Positions 9,503 to 35,711 of a DNA stretch of 64,000 nucleotides are shown in pieces. Source of the stretch: Prochlorococcus marinus XMU1408 (lineage in GTDB: Bacteria; Cyanobacteriota; Cyanobacteriia; PCC-6307; Cyanobiaceae); NCBI RefSeq assembly GCF_003208055.1, contig NZ_QJUE01000002.1:496001-560000 (forward strand), given 5' to 3'. The position numbers were made by a program, and so were the translations under genes. Below the pieces are notes generated by a model. It worked only from the letters and a program-made list of their open reading frames with translations, searched no databases and had not been told where the DNA came from. The stretch's first letter is position 1; every line of letters begins with the position of its first letter.

Positions 9503-10837
9503 TTATATTAATAATAAAATAAAGCTAATTGGGAATAATAATCTTGTTAAAAGTTTAATATATATAACTCTGTTATTTTTAATAGCCATATTAGGGTTCT
9601 CTGGAGGATAGAGCATTCCTCTATCATCATGAACAGAATTAGTTAATGAATTAGTAGGGTGTAAATCCCATGGTTTTTCTTTGTTCAGTGCATTTTGGAG
9701 CCAGTCCCAATAATATTGAACCATTTTATCTTCACCTAATAATTTAACATTATCTTTTTGTATGTAGCCCATTTGATCATTAAATGTTTGAGTTTTTAAA
9801 ACCAAGTAATCTTCAGTGAAAATCTTATAAAAAGTTCTACGTTGGAGATGACTAAATAGCACAAACTTAGTAAATAATTTGTTTTTTAGAAATTTTCTAT
9901 AATGTCTAACAATTACTCTTGCTTTGTTATTTCCAAGTGGAATATGATCAAGTACCTGAATGTATCTAGTACTTTCTGGAGAGCCTTTGTATATAAAAAT
10001 CCTACCAGGAGGAACAAATTTTATTCTTATAAACTCTTCCTGACCATTTGTTTTATATGAATATATACTTTCTATTTGCCTATTATCTCGTTTTATTTTT
10101 TGATTGAAACTAGTAATAGTTTCTCTGTTTACGTTTTTATCTGGGATAGTATCTCCGTGCATCCAGAATACATGTAATATATCTAGATGATTCTCAATAA
10201 TCCTTGCCCAATCTGCTTTAAAATCTACATATACTTCTTCATACTCATATTCTAATGAAGGAAATCCATATGAATCAGGTAGTAGGCTATTTAATGATGA
10301 TTTGATTTCAAAATCTTCAATGTTTGCAAGAGGTGTACCAGTATAATAAATATATATATATCCTTCTTTCTCTACACATGGATATTGAAAAAGTTTTATG
10401 CTTTTTGCATAATTATCATAATTAGAATCTATGATATGTTGACAAGTTATTCTATCTAGATTTGTACAACTACCTTGCGATGAGAACCTTGCTCCATGGT
10501 AAGGGCAAACAAGTTGTCCGTTTATAACTTCACCGCCTAAAAATGATGCTCCTCTGTGGGGGCATACATCTTTTACACATCGAACAATACCTTCTCTATC
10601 GCGATACAAAACAAGTGGCTCATTATAAATAGTGAAATGATTTAATTTCCCCTCCTTTATTGATTCACTACTTGAAACTGAATACCAGCCTAATAGGCCA
10701 TTAGTTAATTGATTGGATGGCTTTGGTGATGAAACCTCAAGATCTTTTACGTTTTCTTTCCCATTAAAACTTGAACTAATGAGATTATTAGTCTCAAATT
10801 CATATGATTTCTTATTTTTTTCTTTTTCGTCGTTCAT
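9503..10837 (-). CDS. cao: Rieske oxygenase, Prochlorococcus-type chlorophyllide a oxygenase
   Basis: A 444-residue Rieske non-haem iron oxygenase. Rieske ligands are Cys92-x-His94 and Cys111-x2-His114; the mononuclear iron motif is Asn216-x2-Asp219-x2-His222-x4-His227. A C-terminal hydrophobic helix suggests membrane anchoring. This layout fits the divergent Prochlorococcus enzyme that oxidises the 7-methyl group of (divinyl) chlorophyllide a to give the b form. The pcb gene nearby supports this. A pheophorbide a oxygenase/PaO-like enzyme is the alternative. Confidence 0.78.
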   Translation of the reverse strand: MNDEKEKNKKSYEFETNNLISSSFNGKENVKDLEVSSPKPSNQLTNGLLGWYSVSSSESIKEGKLNHFTIYNEPLVLYRDREGIVRCVKDVCPHRGASFLGGEVINGQLVCPYHGARFSSQGSCTNLDRITCQHIIDSNYDNYAKSIKLFQYPCVEKEGYIYIYYTGTPLANIEDFEIKSSLNSLLPDSYGFPSLEYEYEEVYVDFKADWARIIENHLDILHVFWMHGDTIPDKNVNRETITSFNQKIKRDNRQIESIYSYKTNGQEEFIRIKFVPPGRIFIYKGSPESTRYIQVLDHIPLGNNKARVIVRHYRKFLKNKLFTKFVLFSHLQRRTFYKIFTEDYLVLKTQTFNDQMGYIQKDNVKLLGEDKMVQYYWDWLQNALNKEKPWDLHPTNSLTNSVHDDRGMLYPPENPNMAIKNNRVIYIKLLTRLLFPISFILLLI

Positions 10838-13137: not shown

Positions 13138-14184
13138 ATGAATATTGAAAAACTTTTTATTAATGGTGAGGTATCTTTATATGGTTACAATTATAAATCC
13201 TTACCCGAAGTTATTCCTAAACTATCTAAAAAGAAAATTTTAATTGCTTATCTTAAACATAGTATTCATCAAAATTATTTTTCATCAACTAATGTTAAAT
13301 TACTTGATTCAATTAATCAAGTAGGACTTGAAGATAATGATATTAATAACACTTTCTTGTTGGATCAGTCATTCACAAAGTGTCTGATTAAGTCATATCC
13401 CAGCAATCCTCAATATGTTTTCGTTTCCCTTTCTAATCCCTTTTATTATCCATATATCCTAATAGGTATAATTAGAAGATTGCTTTTGCGAAAAATCAAC
13501 ATAATTGGTATAAGATCTTTAATAATTTCAAAATCCAATACTTATTGGATTTTATTAAGTAGAAACACCATTGCTAATGGCTTTACATTCTATTTATCAA
13601 GAGAATTTGGAATTAAGAATTTTTTAAAATTTCTTCATTTTGAGCATATAAACTATGTAATACTTAGATCTTACGACGCACTTCCAGTACTCTCTTCTTT
13701 GAGTTCCGATATTGATATGTTAGTCGACTCTAGAGATGTAGAAAAAGTTAAGACATTTTTAATCGAAAATACTGGCACACAAAGAATTGATATATGGAGC
13801 TCAAATAGTCCTGATTTCAATGGAGTCCCCTATTTTCCTGAAGATGTTTCTAAAAATGTTCTAGCTAGAAGTATTGATGGACCTTGCTTGTCAAAAATAC
13901 CTAATAAATATGATGAATTAAATCTTTTGATATTTCATTGTCTCTATCATAAAGGTTTTAATAGTGGGATAAGGTCTAAATATAGATCTTATAATTGTGT
14001 TCCAATTCATGAGAAATATTCAAAGCGTATTAAAACAATGTCAAATAAATTGGGGATAAATATTGGTTCCAATATGGAAGATATGCATTTTTATTTAATT
14101 AAAAAGAAATTAACACCAAGAAAAGATCAGTTAATTAAACTATCAAAAAATAATGAGTGGATAAAATGTATTTTACGAGAATAA
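13138..14184 (+). CDS. nucleotidyltransferase-like protein, intact paralogue
   Basis: A 348-residue protein. VILRSYDALPVLSSLSSDIDMLVD (about 174-197) has the shape of a nucleotidyltransferase active-site strand, with Asp191-x-Asp193 as the likely metal ligands. It shares many segments with the 524-residue protein at 14987-16561: an SxYGY start, LLDQS near 75-78, VSLSNP and GIIRRLL, SLYHKG-like CLYHKGF, and a C-terminal KLSKNNEWIK. In polysaccharide clusters such proteins are often misannotated or linked to sugar activation or phosphotransfer. The actual substrate is unknown. Confidence 0.5.
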   Translation: MNIEKLFINGEVSLYGYNYKSLPEVIPKLSKKKILIAYLKHSIHQNYFSSTNVKLLDSINQVGLEDNDINNTFLLDQSFTKCLIKSYPSNPQYVFVSLSNPFYYPYILIGIIRRLLLRKINIIGIRSLIISKSNTYWILLSRNTIANGFTFYLSREFGIKNFLKFLHFEHINYVILRSYDALPVLSSLSSDIDMLVDSRDVEKVKTFLIENTGTQRIDIWSSNSPDFNGVPYFPEDVSKNVLARSIDGPCLSKIPNKYDELNLLIFHCLYHKGFNSGIRSKYRSYNCVPIHEKYSKRIKTMSNKLGINIGSNMEDMHFYLIKKKLTPRKDQLIKLSKNNEWIKCILRE

Positions 14185-14259
14185 TTTAGTAAAATATATT
14201 TTCCTATAGTTCTTGGCTTAATTATTTAATGCTTTTAATGAAATATATATAGTATCAAT

Positions 14260-14985
14260 TTAATTAACATTTGCATTATAGTTTAGTATTTTACTACGCA
14301 TTTTTTTAATGAGAAATTGATTATTACTTTCATAGCTATAAACAATAGATTTAATTTGTGAGAAAGTTAATCCTGGAAATCTTTTATTTCTATTTGTATT
14401 CATGTCTTTAATTGTATTGGTTAAACATTGGTCTTTTGTAGAGTCGCAGTAAATATAAATTGTATTTGTTTGATTTGAAATTGAATTCAAATTAATTATT
14501 ATCTTTTTATATAGAAAATTAGAAATTTTTAATATATTAAGAGAAGGTAGTATATGGTAAATACCTTCTGAAATTACAAAATCATTCTTAGAATTATTAA
14601 TCATATCCCAAGTGAATATAATATATTTAATTAGAAGCAATGTATATATTCTATGAATAGATTTTCTTCTTATAAAATGATAAAAATAAATCATTATAAA
14701 AATGATAACAAGAATTTTATTTTTAAAACTTGAATATATAATAAAATTTAAAAGAAGCTTATACTTCGCTATATACCCTCTACTAAATGAGTTGATTGTT
14801 TTATCTACTTTATAACCACCGGATATTAGATCTTTTTCTAATTTATTCATAAAGGTTGTCTTTCCTGAAGCGAAATTACCTAATAATTCTATTAGGATTT
14901 TATCATTATAAGTATCTTTCTTTTTTATTATATAATCTTTAATTGTTTCATATTTATATGAGTATTTATTTTCTTCTTCCTGCAT
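14260..14985 (-). CDS. P-loop kinase-like protein with hydrophobic segment
   Basis: A 241-residue protein. Walker A GNFASGKTT lies near residue 36, in the style of small nucleotide or sugar kinases. A strongly hydrophobic stretch (about 75-105) suggests membrane association. A later IYIYCDS strand and an Arg-containing NRNKRFPG lid-like segment support a kinase fold. It starts one base after the stop of 14987-16561, so the two are translationally linked. Substrate unknown. Confidence 0.5.
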   Translation of the reverse strand: MQEEENKYSYKYETIKDYIIKKKDTYNDKILIELLGNFASGKTTFMNKLEKDLISGGYKVDKTINSFSRGYIAKYKLLLNFIIYSSFKNKILVIIFIMIYFYHFIRRKSIHRIYTLLLIKYIIFTWDMINNSKNDFVISEGIYHILPSLNILKISNFLYKKIIINLNSISNQTNTIYIYCDSTKDQCLTNTIKDMNTNRNKRFPGLTFSQIKSIVYSYESNNQFLIKKMRSKILNYNANVN

Positions 14986-14986
14986 T

Positions 14987-16561
14987 TTAGTGGTTTATTA
15001 TCACCTTTATTATATTATTATATATCTCTATGACTGCATTATTTATCTTAGAATTAATTTTTAATATTCTATCTTGAAAGCTTATTTTTACTGTTTTTGC
15101 ATTTCTAGCCATATTTCTATATTCATCTATTTGTTTTGGCAAAATTATTTGTAAATATTCTAGGGTTTCAATAGTATTATCCGTAGAATGAATTAAGCTA
15201 CAGCTTGAATTATCAATTTTTTCTCTAAGTTTGTTTTTGATTCTTATTAGTTCTTGAGGATTTCTATTCCTTTTGTCTACAAAAATGATATACATATATG
15301 GATCATAATATGAACTACATGTTTTTATCATTTTCGGTTCTGAATCCCATATGCCACCGCGTAAATTTTTTTTCGTCAGATGTCTTTGTTCTTTCGTCAT
15401 ATATTGATAGTCGATAATTTCCATAGAGTTATCTTTTAAATATTTATTGATATATTTTTGTTTGTTTCCATATTTAATACCTTCCTTTAGAATGTAGATA
15501 TATAGGAATTTATTATATTTAATAGTATATTTAAGATTACTTTTTACCCAGTCATTGCTATCACTTATTTTTACCAGAGTATCTCTTGCTGGTTTCCAAT
15601 TTATTTTATTCATATATTTATCTAGATCTTCAAGAGTAGAAAATGAATTATTAATTCCTAATTCTTTTTTATATTTATCAATATATGTTTTAAATATTGA
15701 TTCTCTAGGTAAATAATTTGTTTTATGATGAGAGCTATTTATTTTTGAATTGTAACCTTTATGGTATAAACTATAATATATCATTATATTTAGAGCATCA
15801 ATACTCCTTGGTATAGATAATTTTTTATCATTACTTATTGTACTATTAATTATTGATTTCCCAATTCTAGGAGGTAAAAATGGAAGTCCATTTATACCTG
15901 GTTTTGTTATAGTCCATAGTTTTATTCTTATATTACCTTTATGACTATTTAGGAATCTTTCCATCTCATCCTTTCCTTTATCTTCTATTATTATATGTAT
16001 ATTTTCCTCTTGATTACTTTTTTTCTTCTCATCTAAGAGTGGGATTACATATTTTAATTTTCTAGTTTTTGTAAAACTATCAATTCCTTGTAAGCCTAAT
16101 TTATCGGAGAAATGAAAGATATTGGTTTTAATTTGTACGTTTCTTTTTAGTACTATCCAAATTTTCTTTTTGTTGATTAAAGTTAATCCCTTATACTTTA
16201 TCTGGTTGATTAATAAACGTCTAATTAATCCAATTATTGATATAGGATTTAATATTAAACTATTCAGAGAAACTATAACATAATTTGCTATTAGTGGATA
16301 TCCTTTTATTAAACTCTTTACTGAACTCTGATCAAGAAAAATTAAATCACTTTCATCCCATTGAGTCTGTCTATAACTTTCATATATAAAGGCTTCTAAG
16401 TCATTTCTTATAAGTTTTTTATGTTTTTTTTCTTTAAAAAAAAATTTTACTTTATCTATATAGTTTTTTCTGATAACATCTGGAACTATCATATCTGAAT
16501 AGCCATAAAAGCTGATTGTGGAATTATTCTTTAAGTTTTCTATAACATCAATTAAATTCAT
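14987..16561 (-). CDS. nucleotidyltransferase-like paralogue with degenerate active site
   Basis: A 524-residue protein. Residues 1-345 align by eye with the protein at 13138-14184 on the other strand: SFYGY (17-21), FLDQSSVKSLIKGYP (75-89), GLIRRLLI (111-118), SLYHKGYNS (264-272) and KISDSNDWVK (331-340). The Asp-x-Asp of the paralogue is replaced by Asn187-Ile-His189 (NIHIIIED), so nucleotidyl transfer is probably lost. An extra domain (350-524) contains HSTDN (458-462) and is not recognised. It lies downstream of the ABC flippase gene and one base upstream of the P-loop kinase gene. Confidence 0.5.
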   Translation of the reverse strand: MNLIDVIENLKNNSTISFYGYSDMIVPDVIRKNYIDKVKFFFKEKKHKKLIRNDLEAFIYESYRQTQWDESDLIFLDQSSVKSLIKGYPLIANYVIVSLNSLILNPISIIGLIRRLLINQIKYKGLTLINKKKIWIVLKRNVQIKTNIFHFSDKLGLQGIDSFTKTRKLKYVIPLLDEKKKSNQEENIHIIIEDKGKDEMERFLNSHKGNIRIKLWTITKPGINGLPFLPPRIGKSIINSTISNDKKLSIPRSIDALNIMIYYSLYHKGYNSKINSSHHKTNYLPRESIFKTYIDKYKKELGINNSFSTLEDLDKYMNKINWKPARDTLVKISDSNDWVKSNLKYTIKYNKFLYIYILKEGIKYGNKQKYINKYLKDNSMEIIDYQYMTKEQRHLTKKNLRGGIWDSEPKMIKTCSSYYDPYMYIIFVDKRNRNPQELIRIKNKLREKIDNSSCSLIHSTDNTIETLEYLQIILPKQIDEYRNMARNAKTVKISFQDRILKINSKINNAVIEIYNNIIKVIINH

Positions 16562-16582: not shown

Positions 16583-18352
16583 TTATTGTTTTATACTCTT
16601 GTAATCTCTTAACTTGCAAAGGTTTAATTCTCCTTTATCATCAATCCAAGCAACATCTGTATCTGGTGGCATAACTGTTAACTTGTGTGTTGCCATAATG
16701 ACAAGAGATTTTTTTGATATTTCTAAAATAATATTATTTAGTTCTTTTTCAACTTCAAAGTCTAGTGAACTAGTAGGCTCATCAAGAATTAATATTTTTG
16801 GATTAAAGTATATTGCTCTAGCAAAAGCTATTCTTTGTTTTTGCCCTCCAGAGAAATTTTGTCCTCTTTCACCTAGCCTGAAATTTATTCCTTTAGGTAA
16901 TGATCTAATATGAGACCAAATATTTGCTTTTTTTAATGAATAGATTAATTTAGCTTTGTCTATTAGTTCTTTATTAACCCCAAAAGCTACATTTGAACTT
17001 ATTGTATCATCATATAGTGAATAGTCTTGATGAAGATATGAAATTAAGTTTTCTTTATTAAATTCTTCCGATATTATTATTTCACCAGAAGTAGCTGTAA
17101 TTAATCCTTTAATAATATCTAAAAGTGTACTTTTACCAGAACCACTGTTTCCAATAACCAAGAGTAATCCTTTTTTTTCTAATTTTAAATTTATATTGTT
17201 CAAAATATTGATATTATTATTATTATGATGAAAATTCATATTTTTTATTTCTATAGATCTGTTATCAAATTTTCCGAAGTTAATATATTTAATAAAATTA
17301 TTATTAGATGTATTTTCTTCTTTTAGTTCGGTTAAGATATTTTTAACAATTTTAGAACCATATTTAATACTACTTAAACCATGAAATATAGCAGTCAAGG
17401 AAGGTTGCAATCTGTAAGCAGCAAATGCAAATGTTCCCAACATAGTAAGACCATTTAATGAATTACTAGATTCAATTCTATAAAATACAGTTATAATCAT
17501 TAAACCAGAAAACGCAAATAACTCTAATAGATATTTTGGACTTTCATTTATTGTTTGATAATCAGCTAATTTTTCGGCAAATCTTCTTGACGGTATTTTG
17601 AATCTATTTATAAAAAAATTTTCAGCAGCATATATCTTTATGTCTTTAATTGATTCAAATGATTCTTTAGCCATTTTGAATCTTTCTTTATTAGCTTCAC
17701 TTGTAATTATGCCTATTCTTGCCGTTTCTTTCTTTACTATACTGTAAAATACAATATAGAAAATACCTATAAATGTTATTGATAGTAATGTAGCTTTTGG
17801 ATCTGTAAAGTATAAATAAGTGGTTATAAATATAAGTATAATTACATTTGTCATAAGTAACATTGTTGGTCTAAAAACTTGTATAATAAATTGATCAACT
17901 TCGGAAAGTATTAATTTTGATATATCAGCTGAGTCTTTTTTATATATAAAATTATATTTTTTTGAAATATATTTTTTTAGTAATCTTACAGCTATATTAT
18001 CTCTTATGAATTCAACAAATTTATTAATCTTATATTGAGAATATATTTTAAATAAAGTTGATAATGTTATTATAAATGTAGCAAACAATGCTATTAATAT
18101 AGTTAATAGTTCTAAATTTATATCTCCAATGTTTATTATATTTAAATAATTAGTAATAGATTCATAATTGTTAAACGCATCTTCTTTTTGACTAATTATT
18201 TTAAGTACTGGTATTATTGATGCAATACTTATAGCATCCATTAATCCAACTATGCACATTAATATTAATAATTTAGCTAATTTAATTTTTTCTTTTAATT
18301 CAAGTATTGATAATACTTTTTGTATTAATTTAATTGAATGTTCTTGTTTCAT
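16583..18352 (-). CDS. ABC transporter, fused membrane and ATPase domains (flippase-like)
   Basis: A 589-residue half-transporter of the MsbA/PglK type. The first 330 residues hold about six membrane helices. The ATPase domain has Walker A GNSGSGKST (about 399-407), signature FSGGQ (500-504), Walker B ILILDEP (521-527) and a THK switch. Such proteins flip lipid-linked oligosaccharides or lipid A precursors across the inner membrane. Its position after a WbpB-like gene fits lipid-linked glycan export. It probably works as a homodimer. Confidence 0.8.
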   Translation of the reverse strand: MKQEHSIKLIQKVLSILELKEKIKLAKLLILMCIVGLMDAISIASIIPVLKIISQKEDAFNNYESITNYLNIINIGDINLELLTILIALFATFIITLSTLFKIYSQYKINKFVEFIRDNIAVRLLKKYISKKYNFIYKKDSADISKLILSEVDQFIIQVFRPTMLLMTNVIILIFITTYLYFTDPKATLLSITFIGIFYIVFYSIVKKETARIGIITSEANKERFKMAKESFESIKDIKIYAAENFFINRFKIPSRRFAEKLADYQTINESPKYLLELFAFSGLMIITVFYRIESSNSLNGLTMLGTFAFAAYRLQPSLTAIFHGLSSIKYGSKIVKNILTELKEENTSNNNFIKYINFGKFDNRSIEIKNMNFHHNNNNINILNNINLKLEKKGLLLVIGNSGSGKSTLLDIIKGLITATSGEIIISEEFNKENLISYLHQDYSLYDDTISSNVAFGVNKELIDKAKLIYSLKKANIWSHIRSLPKGINFRLGERGQNFSGGQKQRIAFARAIYFNPKILILDEPTSSLDFEVEKELNNIILEISKKSLVIMATHKLTVMPPDTDVAWIDDKGELNLCKLRDYKSIKQ

Positions 18353-18382: not shown

Positions 18383-19471
18383 TTATTCTAAGTCTAATGG
18401 TATTTCAACTATTTGATTAGTATTGGCAGACTTATAAGCAGCTACAACAAGCTCTAGACTATTTAATCCTGATTTTCCACTACAAATTGGATCTTCCTTT
18501 CCATTTAATACATTTATCATATTGAGGTAATATTTCTCATGTCCAAACCCATAAACATTATCTATTTTATAATTATTAAATTCTACTTTCTCTTTATCAT
18601 CCGAATTTATATCCTTAAAGTTCCAATATTTTATTTCATTTAAGGCAACACCTCCTATTTTCACACTTCCTTTTTCACCTAATACAGTAATAGAACCCTC
18701 AATATTATGTGGGAATGTAAGCATTGTTATTGCCATTGTTCCAAGTGTTCCCGACTCCCATGAAAATTGTAATGTTGCGGTATCTTCGCATTCAATTTCT
18801 CTTCCAAGAGTTGCTGTAAATGCATTTATTTTAATTATTGGTCCAATCAACCACTGTATTAAGTCAACATAATGAATACCTTGATTCATTAATGCTCCAC
18901 CATCTAAATTTTTTGTGCCTCTCCATTTATCTTGATCATAATAACTTTGAGGCCTCTGCCAGAATACATTTGCATTGACTAAGTAGATTTTCCCAAACCT
19001 TTTTTTTTCTATCTGCTCTTTCAATAGTTTTAAGGTTTTATTCAGTCTGTTTTGTTTCATTATAAATAATTTAACATCATTATCTTCACAAGCTTTTACC
19101 ATTTCTTTGGCATCCGTCCAATTAGTAGCCATTGGTTTTTCGGAACAACAATGAATACCTTTTTTAGCAGCCATAATTACCTGAGAGGAATGCATTCCAC
19201 TAGGAGTTGCAATTACGACAAGATCAATTTTTAGTTCATGCCTTTCGTGAGACTCCAGCATATGTTTATAGCTAGTAAAGCTGATTGGTGATTCACCAAT
19301 ACCCGCAAAATCTTTTTTTATTGATTGAATTACTGTTTGTATTCTTCCTTCTTCTGGATCGCAAATTGCTATCAAAGTTGCTTTGCTTGAATGATTATAT
19401 ATAGCCTTAATGTGATTCTTCGAGATCCTACCGCAACCAACCAAGGCAATATTTATTTTGTTGTCAGCCAT
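18383..19471 (-). CDS. wbpB: Gfo/Idh/MocA oxidoreductase, WbpB/WlbA-like
   Basis: A 362-residue NAD-dependent dehydrogenase. The N-terminus INIALVGCGRISKNH is typical of UDP-GlcNAcA 3-dehydrogenases (WbpB/WlbA). EKPMATNW supplies the conserved Glu-Lys-Pro and GGALMNQGIHYVDL the catalytic His region. I chose the ATG at 19471 over the upstream start at 19501. The enzyme oxidises C3 of UDP-GlcNAcA before transamination. Partners WbpA, WbpD and WbpE are all in this island. A CTAG box lies 34 bases upstream. It heads a minus-strand run with the flippase, the paralogue and the kinase. Confidence 0.75.
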   Translation of the reverse strand: MADNKINIALVGCGRISKNHIKAIYNHSSKATLIAICDPEEGRIQTVIQSIKKDFAGIGESPISFTSYKHMLESHERHELKIDLVVIATPSGMHSSQVIMAAKKGIHCCSEKPMATNWTDAKEMVKACEDNDVKLFIMKQNRLNKTLKLLKEQIEKKRFGKIYLVNANVFWQRPQSYYDQDKWRGTKNLDGGALMNQGIHYVDLIQWLIGPIIKINAFTATLGREIECEDTATLQFSWESGTLGTMAITMLTFPHNIEGSITVLGEKGSVKIGGVALNEIKYWNFKDINSDDKEKVEFNNYKIDNVYGFGHEKYYLNMINVLNGKEDPICSGKSGLNSLELVVAAYKSANTNQIVEIPLDLE

Positions 19472-19505
19472 TATTAAGCATATATAATCTAATTCTAACA
19501 TAAGA

Positions 19506-32492: not shown

Positions 32493-33524
32493 ATGTCTGA
32501 TAATTTTAATTTAATTGACCCAAATTATTATATATCACCTTTAGATGTTTCTGATTATGAAATTGGTTTTTTGATGAAAATATTAAAAAAAATGTTACTT
32601 ATTAGATTTACTGAGGAATGTTTAGCCTCTAATAAGAAGGAAGGAAAAATCGGATCTCCTGTTCATTTGGGTATTGGACAAGAGGCTATCGCAACAGCAA
32701 TTTCTGAGTGTCTTAATAAAGAAGATTATATTTTTGGCAATCATCGTTCTCATAGTCATGTTCTTTCTTTGGGCACTAACTTACAATCTTTTTTTGCTGA
32801 AATTCTGTGCAAATCATCAGGCCTTTCTGGAGGAAGGGGTGGGTCTATGCACTTAATTGATGAATCTGTAGGTTTTTATGGATCTGTACCAATTGTTGCT
32901 GGAACTGTTCCACTAGCTGTTGGAGCTGGTTTTACATCTAAATTGAAAAAAAATAAATCAATATCAGTATCTTATTTTGGTGATGGAGCTATTGAAGAAG
33001 GAGTAGTTCATGAGTCTCTTAATCTTGCAAGAATTAATCAACTTCCTGTGATTTTTGTTTTAGAAAATAATTTATTTTCCAGCCATTTGCATATTTCTCA
33101 ACGCCAGCCAAGTCCTTTTTCTTCTAGATATTCAAAAGCTAATGATATTGAATCTTTTTTGGTTGATGGTAATAATGTGTTAGAACTTTTTAAATGTGCC
33201 TCTAAAATAATTAGTAATTGTAGAAATAAGCATAGACCATATTTTATCGAAGCTGTAACCTATAGATGGTTAGGTCATGTTGATTGGAGAGAAGATATCG
33301 ATGTGGGTGTTAGTCGATCTAAAACTGATATTGAAAAATGGAAAAGAAGAGATCCCATTAAAAGATTAGAAGATTCTTTACTAAATAAATGTTTAACTAC
33401 TAAGAAAGATCTCAAAAATATAAGGGACGAATTAAAGTCTTATGTGGAAGAATCTTGGATTAAAGCATTGAATGCCTCTAAACCTAATCCTGACTCATTA
33501 ATTGATCACGTTTATCGTCAATAA
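32493..33524 (+). CDS. thiamine diphosphate E1 alpha-like subunit
   Basis: A 343-residue E1 alpha subunit. The TPP-binding motif is GDGAIEEGVVHESLNLA through LENN (163-193), and the GNHRSHSH segment holds conserved His. It resembles pyruvate/acetoin dehydrogenase E1 alpha, which forms an alpha2beta2 enzyme decarboxylating a 2-oxo acid. The beta partner starts 2 bases after its stop. No E2 or E3 gene is near, and both neighbours are sugar genes. Confidence 0.8.
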   Translation: MSDNFNLIDPNYYISPLDVSDYEIGFLMKILKKMLLIRFTEECLASNKKEGKIGSPVHLGIGQEAIATAISECLNKEDYIFGNHRSHSHVLSLGTNLQSFFAEILCKSSGLSGGRGGSMHLIDESVGFYGSVPIVAGTVPLAVGAGFTSKLKKNKSISVSYFGDGAIEEGVVHESLNLARINQLPVIFVLENNLFSSHLHISQRQPSPFSSRYSKANDIESFLVDGNNVLELFKCASKIISNCRNKHRPYFIEAVTYRWLGHVDWREDIDVGVSRSKTDIEKWKRRDPIKRLEDSLLNKCLTTKKDLKNIRDELKSYVEESWIKALNASKPNPDSLIDHVYRQ

Positions 33525-33526
33525 AA

Positions 33527-34537
33527 ATGTCTTTTAATAATGATATTGAAATTAGTTATTGTGATGCTATTAGAGAGGCTTTTTCATATCTATTAAAGAA
33601 CTATCCTGAGGTCTTTGTTATAGGACAAGGACTTTGGAGCCCATGGTATGTTGGAAATACAATGTTAAATCTGGATACGATTTATGGCAAAGATAGAGTT
33701 ATAGATACTCCCGTTTCTGAATCAGCAACAACTGGTGCAGCTTTAGGAGCAGCAATAACTGGAATGAAACCAATTGTTGTCCATCCTCGTATGGATTTTA
33801 TGCTTTATGCAATGGACACCATTGTTAACCAAGCAGCTAAATGGAATTATATGTATGCGGGCAAATGTAGTTCCCCTTGTCTGACAATTAGATCCATAAT
33901 TAATCGTGGAGGAGAGCAAGGCGCTCAACATTCTCAAGCATTACATTCATTATTTTCTCATATTCCTGGCTTAAGAGTGGTTATGCCTGCTACTCCAACA
34001 GATGCCAGGGACTTGTTAATAGCCTCTTGTCTTTCACCTGATCCTGTTCTTTATATTGATGATAGATGGTTATATAGTCAAAAAGAGATATTATCGCCTA
34101 TAAAAGAAATAAATCTCGCAGAACAAGGCCCATTAGTTTTAAATAATGGAAGTGATTTAACTATTGTAGCCTGTAGTTATTCTGTTTTGTTAGCCAAGCA
34201 AGCAATTAAAGAATTAAATTCAAGTAAAAATATAAATTCAATAGAATTAATTGATCTAAGAATATTAAACCCTTTACGTATGAATCTAATTATAAATTCT
34301 GTTAAGAAAACAGGACGGTTATTAGTTATAGATGGTGGTTGGGATAGCTGTGGAATAGGCTCAGAGATAATAAGTAAGGTTTGTGAAAACATTGATTTAT
34401 CATTACTAAAGACTCAGCCACAAAAAATATGTTTACCTAATTGTGCGGCACCTTCGGCAATGAATTTAGAGGATGAATATTATCCTAATATTCAGAGAGT
34501 AATAGCTAAAATTAAATTTATTATAGTTCAAAATTAA
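33527..34537 (+). CDS. thiamine diphosphate E1 beta-like (transketolase-type) subunit
   Basis: A 336-residue E1 beta subunit. DTPVSESATTGAALGAA contains the Glu that activates the TPP aminopyrimidine (about 65). QHSQALHSLFSHIPGLRVVMPATPTDARDLL and a C-terminal transketolase domain (KKTGRLLVIDGG) follow. It pairs with the preceding alpha subunit. Because a WbpE-like aminotransferase follows, the pair may build or modify a sugar or acyl precursor rather than feed central metabolism; this is inference. Confidence 0.8.
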   Translation: MSFNNDIEISYCDAIREAFSYLLKNYPEVFVIGQGLWSPWYVGNTMLNLDTIYGKDRVIDTPVSESATTGAALGAAITGMKPIVVHPRMDFMLYAMDTIVNQAAKWNYMYAGKCSSPCLTIRSIINRGGEQGAQHSQALHSLFSHIPGLRVVMPATPTDARDLLIASCLSPDPVLYIDDRWLYSQKEILSPIKEINLAEQGPLVLNNGSDLTIVACSYSVLLAKQAIKELNSSKNINSIELIDLRILNPLRMNLIINSVKKTGRLLVIDGGWDSCGIGSEIISKVCENIDLSLLKTQPQKICLPNCAAPSAMNLEDEYYPNIQRVIAKIKFIIVQN

Positions 34538-34607: not shown

Positions 34608-35711
34608 ATGACAGCAGTCCCTTTTTTTGACTATTCTCGTCACTATCTAGATGATAGAGATAACTATCTAAAGATTATCGACGAAGTTTCATCTAAAGGT
34701 GCATTTATAATGCAAAATGAATTGAGTCAATTTGAAGAAAATTTATCATCTTTTACCAAAGCTAAATATTCAATAGGTGTTGCTAATGCTACAGATGGTC
34801 TTGAGATGTGTTGGATGGCAATTGGATTAAATCCCACAGATGAGGTGATTATTTCTTCTCATACTATGCTAGCTACTGCTTCAGCAATTAAACTTGCAGG
34901 TGGTAAACCAATACCTGTTGATATTGGTTATGATAATTTAATTGATCCATTAAAAGTTGAAGAGGCAATAAATGAAAATACCGTTGGTATTATGCCAACG
35001 CAATTAAATGGTCGAACATGCGATATGGATAAAATAATGTCAATAGCTAATAAATATAATTTGTACGTTGTAGAGGACGCAGCACAGGCATTAGGTTCAT
35101 CTTTTAATGGAAAGTTTGCAGGAACATTTGGTCATGCTTCTTCAATTAGTTTTTATCCTGCTAAAGTTTTAGGATGCCTCGGAGACGGTGGAGCGATTCT
35201 TACTAACTCTGAGAATTTATTTCAAACGATTTATCAATTACATGATCACGGAAGAGATTTAAATGGAATTGTTAGAAGATGGGGAAGAAATAGTCGTCTT
35301 GATAATTTAAATGCAGCAATATTAGATTTTAAATTAAAATCTTACAAAGATGTTATTAAAAGAAGAAGACAAATAGCCAGTATTTATCAAGAAAGATTAT
35401 CTACACTCGAATACATAAATCTCCCACCTGCTCCTGGTTCTGAGGATAAGCATTTTGATATATTTCAAAACTATGAAATTACAGCAAGAAATAGAAATCA
35501 ATTGAAGAAATATTTACATGATTTAGATATTGGAACATTAATTCAGTGGGGTGGTCAAGGGATACATCAATTTAAAGAATTAGGATTTGATTTGAATCTT
35601 CCTAATACTGAGTTATTCTTTAAGAAATGCCTTATGTTACCTATAAATTTATTTATCAGTGATAACGATGTAAATTATGTTTGTGATAGTATTATTAAGT
35701 TTTATAAGTAA
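34608..35711 (+). CDS. wbpE: DegT/DnrJ/EryC1 aminotransferase, WbpE/WlbC-like
   Basis: A 367-residue PLP enzyme. PLP Lys186 lies in SFYPAKVLGCLGDGG, and Asp157 (VVEDAAQALG) binds the pyridine nitrogen. The whole sequence fits sugar aminotransferases. With WbpB it would convert the 3-keto intermediate to UDP-2-acetamido-3-amino-2,3-dideoxyglucuronate. Other DegT enzymes act at C4, so the C3 assignment rests on the other pathway genes present. It lies 2 bases before the phosphoglycosyl transferase gene. Confidence 0.8.
   Translation: MTAVPFFDYSRHYLDDRDNYLKIIDEVSSKGAFIMQNELSQFEENLSSFTKAKYSIGVANATDGLEMCWMAIGLNPTDEVIISSHTMLATASAIKLAGGKPIPVDIGYDNLIDPLKVEEAINENTVGIMPTQLNGRTCDMDKIMSIANKYNLYVVEDAAQALGSSFNGKFAGTFGHASSISFYPAKVLGCLGDGGAILTNSENLFQTIYQLHDHGRDLNGIVRRWGRNSRLDNLNAAILDFKLKSYKDVIKRRRQIASIYQERLSTLEYINLPPAPGSEDKHFDIFQNYEITARNRNQLKKYLHDLDIGTLIQWGGQGIHQFKELGFDLNLPNTELFFKKCLMLPINLFISDNDVNYVCDSIIKFYK

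Follow-up and report, generated by a model that had tools for sequence, protein, structure and literature searches.

The window analysed here, a 64,000-nucleotide stretch of the genome of Prochlorococcus marinus XMU1408 (contig NZ_QJUE01000002.1, positions 496,001 to 560,000), contains two neighbouring genes on opposite strands whose products, P0001 and P0002, resemble each other, and a third gene, encoding P0003, directly downstream of the second. P0001 (13138..14184, plus strand, 348 amino acids) consists of an N-terminal domain (residues ∼1–150) and a putative nucleotidyltransferase (NTase) domain (∼156–348), and has no domain resembling nucleoside diphosphate kinase (NDPK). P0002 (14987..16561, minus strand, 524 amino acids) is encoded by an unbroken reading frame of 524 codons and comprises an N-terminal domain, an NTase domain devoid of the expected carboxylates, an NDPK-like domain and a C-terminal tail. 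P0003 (14260..14985, minus strand) is a P-loop protein of 241 amino acids whose gene lies 1 bp downstream of that of P0002.

An earlier note on this DNA had described the first two proteins as similar over almost their whole common length. Both reading frames lie where the note had placed them, and BLASTP analysis confirmed their similarity, which held in a proper alignment with 31% identity over 351 columns (residues 3–347 of P0001 against 7–344 of P0002, E 2e-46); the two matched again in a search of their own genome (E 8e-45). Judged by their sequences, P0001 and P0002 are paralogues.

The carboxylates of the D-x-D...D pattern are catalytic in the NTase superfamily. P0001 possesses all three, namely those of an intact Asp-x-Asp (D191-I-D193, 13708..13716, within SSDIDMLVD) and D218 (13789..13791, in RIDIW), the presumed third catalytic Asp. 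None of the three is present in P0002, where the alignment places N187-I-H189 (15995..16003, minus strand, reading ENIHIIIED) at the Asp-x-Asp and K214 (15920..15922, minus strand, in RIKLW) at the third Asp. The kept and the replaced Asp-x-Asp had thus been correctly recognized in the earlier note, as had the NTase-type character of the P0001 motifs; the loss of the third Asp had been overlooked. P0002 nevertheless retains P251, H267-K268, P324 and D327, which are invariant in a 14-row alignment of the family. Among 21 sequences compared, 20 carry D-x-D and P0002 is the sole exception; in one of them, L031, which the motif pattern missed, the motif (DIDLL) was read from the sequence and matched separately. 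The third Asp was seen in P0001, in 16 relatives of the same domain order and in the fusion protein L037; in L031 the sequence FDFR occupies the probable position, and L008 had no match to the third-Asp pattern.

Together with the D-x-D...D pattern, two further results suggest that P0001 is a nucleotidyltransferase-type protein. Firstly, the Pfam family NTP_transf_5 (PF14907) matched P0001 over the D-x-D region with 13.8 bits (E 0.045), missing the curated cut-off of 31.2 bits; family members P0008 (E 0.016) and L008 (E 0.041) matched likewise, every row seen being under the cut-off, and P0002 had no match at E ≤ 1. Secondly, the AlphaFold model of P0005, a relative from Planococcus, gave weak Foldseek rows with CCA-adding NTases (probability 0.21–0.23). 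The LicD model PF04991 had no match at E ≤ 1 in P0001, in P0002 or in the 14 family members scanned. Searches of NCBIfam gave nothing at E ≤ 1 for P0001, P0002 or P0003, and those of PHROGs nothing useful for P0001 or P0002. Structural matches of the P0002 model lay nearly all on residues 1–142, with no NTase or NDPK rows among them; an S-adenosylmethionine-methyltransferase Rossmann fold was considered for this N-terminal domain and discarded, the best Z (6.2) being too weak given the poor model.

The C-terminal domain of P0002

Beyond the common part, P0002 carries 180 extra residues (345–524), which include the HSTDN motif already noticed as the mark of an additional C-terminal domain. Profile searches, the predicted fold of P0005 and the alignment of the His motif suggest that this domain is NDPK-like, extending over residues ∼349–475 (15137..15517, minus strand). 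When a 10-row profile of the domain, P0002 included, was compared with the PDB, 27 matches were obtained, the best 13 of which were all NDPKs (top E 0.0027), and the matches fell on the first strand and helix and on the His motif. The Pfam NDPK family PF00334 was found at E ≤ 1 in 6 of 14 members, best in P0005 (E 7.5e-4, covering 6–132 of the 135 profile positions); the highest score seen, again that of P0005, was 19.8 bits, the curated cut-off of 27 bits was reached by none, and P0002 gave no match. In searches with single proteins the resemblance was not visible, neither against the PDB (P0001, P0002, P0005) nor in Pfam (P0001, P0002, P0004), whereas it emerged in Pfam through P0005 to P0008 and also in the searches with profiles. 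Alignment of the domain profile with the NDK of the same genome by hhalign was only partial (probability 25%, 38 columns). With the P0005 model, 48 of the 50 rows listed by VIA-align were NDPKs and two were RP2 (Z 9.4–10.1, 111–126 residues, root mean square deviation 2.9–3.7), RP2 being the top row, tied with NDPKs. The C-terminal domain of RP2 is NDPK-like and is not known to act as a kinase.

The His of the NDPK motif N-x-x-H-G-S-D is catalytic. In an alignment of 13 of the 19 domain-bearing rows with the NDK of the same genome, H458 of HSTDN (15188..15190, minus strand) was placed with the His of the NDK motif NVIHGSD, and this His occurs in every one of the 19 domain-bearing sequences, 17 of which had been chosen by other means and two (L031 and L008) by the His motif itself. 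None of the 19 rows has the Gly of the motif, Ser or Ala standing in its place. P0002 has the lowest identity in the set to the first row of the domain alignment (22%), and it keeps the His, a conserved RGGxW and the Lys and Arg that are invariant in the 10-row alignment. As the His is kept throughout, P0002 may retain a catalytic role, and as an ordinary ndk gene is present elsewhere in the genome, its domain is not the housekeeping NDPK.

Relatives and the kinase link

The family spans the class of the window and the Bacilli. Within the genus it was found only in the genome of the window (1 of 41 genomes, 17 of which are at least 90% complete). A search of related genomes with P0001 yielded 2 of 149 (G000 and G111), the phylum 4 of 386 (one match, L009, being judged chance), the order of G111 4 of 291, the family of G671 3 of 27 with none new, and the window's own family 2 of 251, the second being the fusion L037. 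A scan of named genomes added four Planococcus/Planomicrobium loci. Of 348 genomes from the class to which one of these belongs, 12 gave matches: eight genomes with the family, one with the reversed-order L031 and three with matches judged chance. Loci L022 and L023 lie in genomes already counted for L014 and L016 and did not add to the totals. Five rows were dismissed by eye as chance: L009 (a 79-amino-acid frame whose match contains 8 stops), L034, L040 (whose match contains 9 stops), and L032 and L033, with frames of 594 and 606 amino acids that resemble NTPases of a different sort. Phages and plasmids held no relatives of P0001, P0004 or P0005, and scans of viral contigs found none with the few short peptides used as patterns, so that relatives could be missed. 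The earlier note had not recognized the family; relatives have now been assembled and the C-terminal domain placed, with the curated cut-offs of NTP_transf_5 and NDK reached in no row seen.

The order of P0002, NTase followed by NDPK-like domain, is found in 16 relatives (L004, L011–L017, L024–L030, L035). Nine of them (L011–L013, L026–L030, L035) are longer at both ends: they begin with an N-terminal region and finish with a kinase-like domain, in which the motifs D-F-x-P-x-N and D-F-E-F occur. Eight of these nine are in the 14-row alignment, where their N-terminal region is aligned with that of P0001 and P0002; BLAST covers this region in part only, in L029 from residue 30 of P0001. The Pfam Pkinase family was detected in 6 of 14 members (best E 9.1e-6), the scores seen for fused proteins being under the cut-off. 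The Planococcus proteins are without the kinase domain; an APH-like gene is present in the L014 cluster (PF01636, E 1.7e-7), and similar reading frames occupy its place in L015–L017. Two sequences, L008 and L031 (973-2157), show the reversed order, NDPK-like domain then NTase, with the motifs FHSSND and KIHATN; L008 continues into a WavE domain, and a kinase gene follows L031 (Pkinase, E 1.6e-12). One genome, G808, holds two members (L026 and L035) in which, unlike in the window pair, both the NTase and the NDPK-like motifs are intact.

In the window, the link to a P-loop gene takes the form of close spacing on the minus strand: the P0002 stop codon (14987-14989) and the P0003 ATG (14983-14985) are separated by one base. 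The coupling that the note had called translational is presumed to be so. P0003 contains a Walker A motif, GNFASGKT (14857..14880, minus strand), and has a weak PHROG match to thymidylate kinase (E 0.0074); in Pfam only MobB appeared (13.3 bits, cut-off 26.6). P0003 is a presumed kinase.

In L037 (1549-2895) an NTase and a P-loop domain resembling thymidylate kinase (PF02223, E 3.4e-5, 24.1 bits, cut-off 27) are fused. Its genome belongs to the window's own family, in which the fusion occurs in 1 of 191 genomes, its own.

A possible divided enzyme and its alternatives

The reading that we prefer, with a probability of about 45%, is that P0001, P0002 and P0003 constitute a divided multidomain enzyme that modifies a surface glycan and was split by duplication and complementary loss. 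The window genes together hold the parts of the fused relatives, with the active sites parted. The paralogy, the residue losses, the NDPK-like domain in the family, the gene order and the glycan locus (described below) are observed. We infer the split by duplication in this lineage, the kinase identity of P0003 and all of the chemistry. One duplicate, P0001, would have kept the NTase site and be without the NDPK-like domain, the other, P0002, would have lost the three NTase carboxylates and kept the NDPK-like His, and P0003 would supply the kinase. The kinase may phosphorylate a sugar, alcohol or glycan acceptor (the acceptor itself or a building block), P0001 may add to this phosphate, or take from it, a nucleotidyl or phospho-linked group with an NTP or NDP-activated compound as donor, and the NDPK-like domain of P0002 may shuttle phosphoryl groups via a phospho-His, probably recharging the nucleotide. 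The role of the inactive NTase domain in P0002 might be to hold P0001 or the acceptor.

The duplication is suggested by the search scores: among the 21 sequences P0001 and P0002 are reciprocal best matches (153/158 bits, no other match exceeding 105/110), which, with so clear a margin, fits duplication followed by complementary loss.

A number of results weigh against the divided enzyme. The tree joins P0001 and P0002 with a support of only 62/0 and a long-branch warning; it was built from 18 of the 21 rows, the near copies L015, L024 and L025 being omitted, its outgroup did not form one side of any branch, and the branch of L037 is very long. With such weak support and long branches the tree neither shows nor rejects duplication within the lineage. 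As the pair is known from one genome only, selection on P0002 is not measurable. No family reached its curated cut-off in P0001, P0002 or P0003 (Pfam, NCBIfam). For the NDPK-like domain, many of the 13 top PDB matches were variants of one mimivirus enzyme, and a longer core profile, A5, gave three other proteins as its top PDB rows (E 0.008–0.061), with NDPKs following from E 0.079. In P0002 the motif reads SLIHSTD and departs from N-x-x-H-G-S-D, S455 standing where most relatives and the genome's own NDK have Asn. As to structure prediction, proposed in the earlier note as a check, the P0005 model, source of the NDPK rows and of the weak CCA-adding rows, is of modest quality (mean predicted local distance difference test score, pLDDT, 60.9; ∼73 over residues 261–410), and Foldseek gave it no row at E ≤ 0.001, the best being 4.4e-3, with NDPKs filling most of the list thereafter. 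The P0002 model is poor (mean pLDDT 49.1), and its own NDPK fold therefore rests on alignment with the relatives. With regard to the kinase, P0003 had no convincing relative in the 149 genomes, no kinase was recognized around L004 (by eye) or in the available part of L008, and the P-loop domain of P0009, the L037 fusion, showed no resemblance to P0003, so that the fusion is only a lead for a Rosetta-stone link. The combination of P0001, P0002 and the P-loop gene, whose recurrence the note had suggested looking for, was not found in the other genomes searched.

The foremost rival, which we hold to be somewhat unlikely, is that P0002 is a pure pseudoenzyme, non-catalytic in both domains, on which P0001 or the kinase would depend as a partner, a regulator or a scaffold that binds glycan. 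All three NTase carboxylates are gone, its NDPK-like domain is the lowest in identity and shares the family-wide replacement of the motif Gly, and RP2, not known to be a kinase, stood level with NDPKs at the top of the structural rows. Against this, the His, RGGxW and the invariant Lys and Arg are kept despite complete loss of the NTase site and would be superfluous in a pure scaffold. The earlier proposal of duplication and a change of role is sustained in its paralogy and divergence, and the scaffold idea finds partial support; a mere binding or scaffold role, as the note put it, is not supported, P0002 having an NDPK-like domain with its His.

That P0001 and P0002 were acquired separately, already diverged, and serve different pathways, the division of labour being accidental, appears quite improbable to us. 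The weak tree support would agree with it, as would the opposite strands, with P0001 by galE and P0002 in a row with the ABC exporter and P0003 genes, and G808 illustrates that several members may occur in one genome; however, the reciprocal best match covers nearly all of P0001, and the only genome in the genus with the family has the two genes side by side. Very improbable is that P0002 is a decaying copy turning into a pseudogene within a glycan island that is rich in AT and changes fast. In favour of this are the very low GC content (0.22–0.25 at 13–18 kb versus 0.32–0.37 at 1–9 kb), the long branch of P0002 and its odd composition in the tree, and the absence of the family from the rest of the 41 genomes searched in the genus, 17 of which are at least 90% complete. 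Against it, all 524 codons are intact, the losses strike the NTase carboxylates and leave the HK, P, D and NDPK-like motifs unharmed, and the operon remains tight, with a single base pair between P0002 and P0003.

Returning to the divided enzyme, the systems known to us resemble it in part. NTP_transf_5, a family of uncharacterized nucleotidyltransferases, matches in the D-x-D region, but below its cut-off, and P0002 is without the carboxylates. NDPK is approached by the fold of the P0005 model, by both profile ends and by the His motif; the family differs in that H-G-S-D of the genome's own NDK is replaced by H-S-[STA]-D, the two rows of reversed order having H-[SA]-[ST]-N, and in its conserved RGGxW and an NTase joined to the domain in 19 of 19 rows. 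LicD also differs, as PF04991 had no match in the members scanned, and we know of no NDPK-like domain in LicD, fukutin or FKRP systems. These last are NTase-superfamily transferases that use CDP conjugates (PMC11666461), and share with the window genes, more loosely, a glycan kinase such as POMK in the same pathway. In the lasso peptide pseudomycoidin, PsmK phosphorylates and PsmN, annotated as a nucleotidyltransferase, acts next, with hexoses found on the phosphorylated Ser; nucleotidylation by PsmN with a host enzyme adding the sugar is left open in the review's account (PMC9266682). There a kinase and an annotated NTase act in turn, as proposed here; the substrate is a peptide, and the passages concerned describe no NDPK-like domain. 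The open-access literature yielded no report of a polysaccharide protein with NDPK and NTase domains and none concerning NTP_transf_5.

A bolder version of the divided enzyme, which we consider unlikely, is a new class of glycan-modifying enzyme that combines a kinase, a nucleotidyltransferase and an NDPK-like phosphohistidine domain, with its sites parted, in this genome, over two interdependent paralogues by reciprocal loss; the NDPK-like domain would then recharge the nucleotide in place or pass phosphate straight to the glycan. If the divided enzyme is real, the family would unite three phosphate-handling activities in one surface-glycan tool in both the window's class and the Bacilli, hint at a sugar-phosphate modification not previously assigned, offer a compact natural example of complementary active-site loss after duplication, and provide a functional context for PF14907-like NTases.

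Genomic setting

Upstream of P0002 and after a gap of 21 bp, an ATP-binding cassette (ABC) exporter gene (16583..18352, minus strand), matched below cut-offs by the PglK, HepA and MsbA models, is probably part of the same operon, and is preceded on the same strand by a Gfo/Idh/MocA dehydrogenase gene (18383..19501). Genes for GalE, a glycosyltransferase, a sulfotransferase, an asparagine synthase-like protein and a UDP-glucose/GDP-mannose dehydrogenase are nearby, and further glycosyltransferases, a bacterial sugar transferase, Polysacc_synt_2, polysaccharide export and Wzz proteins are encoded elsewhere in the locus. This gene content identifies a surface polysaccharide locus, in keeping with the glycan context proposed earlier.

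Within the polysaccharide locus, E1 dehydrogenase and transketolase domains occur in a pair on the plus strand (32493-34537 and 34608-35711), and a DegT aminotransferase and then a sugar transferase come immediately after; this group perhaps represents a branched or unusual sugar pathway. Just ahead of the low-GC region lie a reading frame for a Rieske-like oxygenase, recognized by eye (9503-10837, minus strand), and a gene for an AhpC-TSA_2 protein (PF13911; 7719-8444, plus strand).

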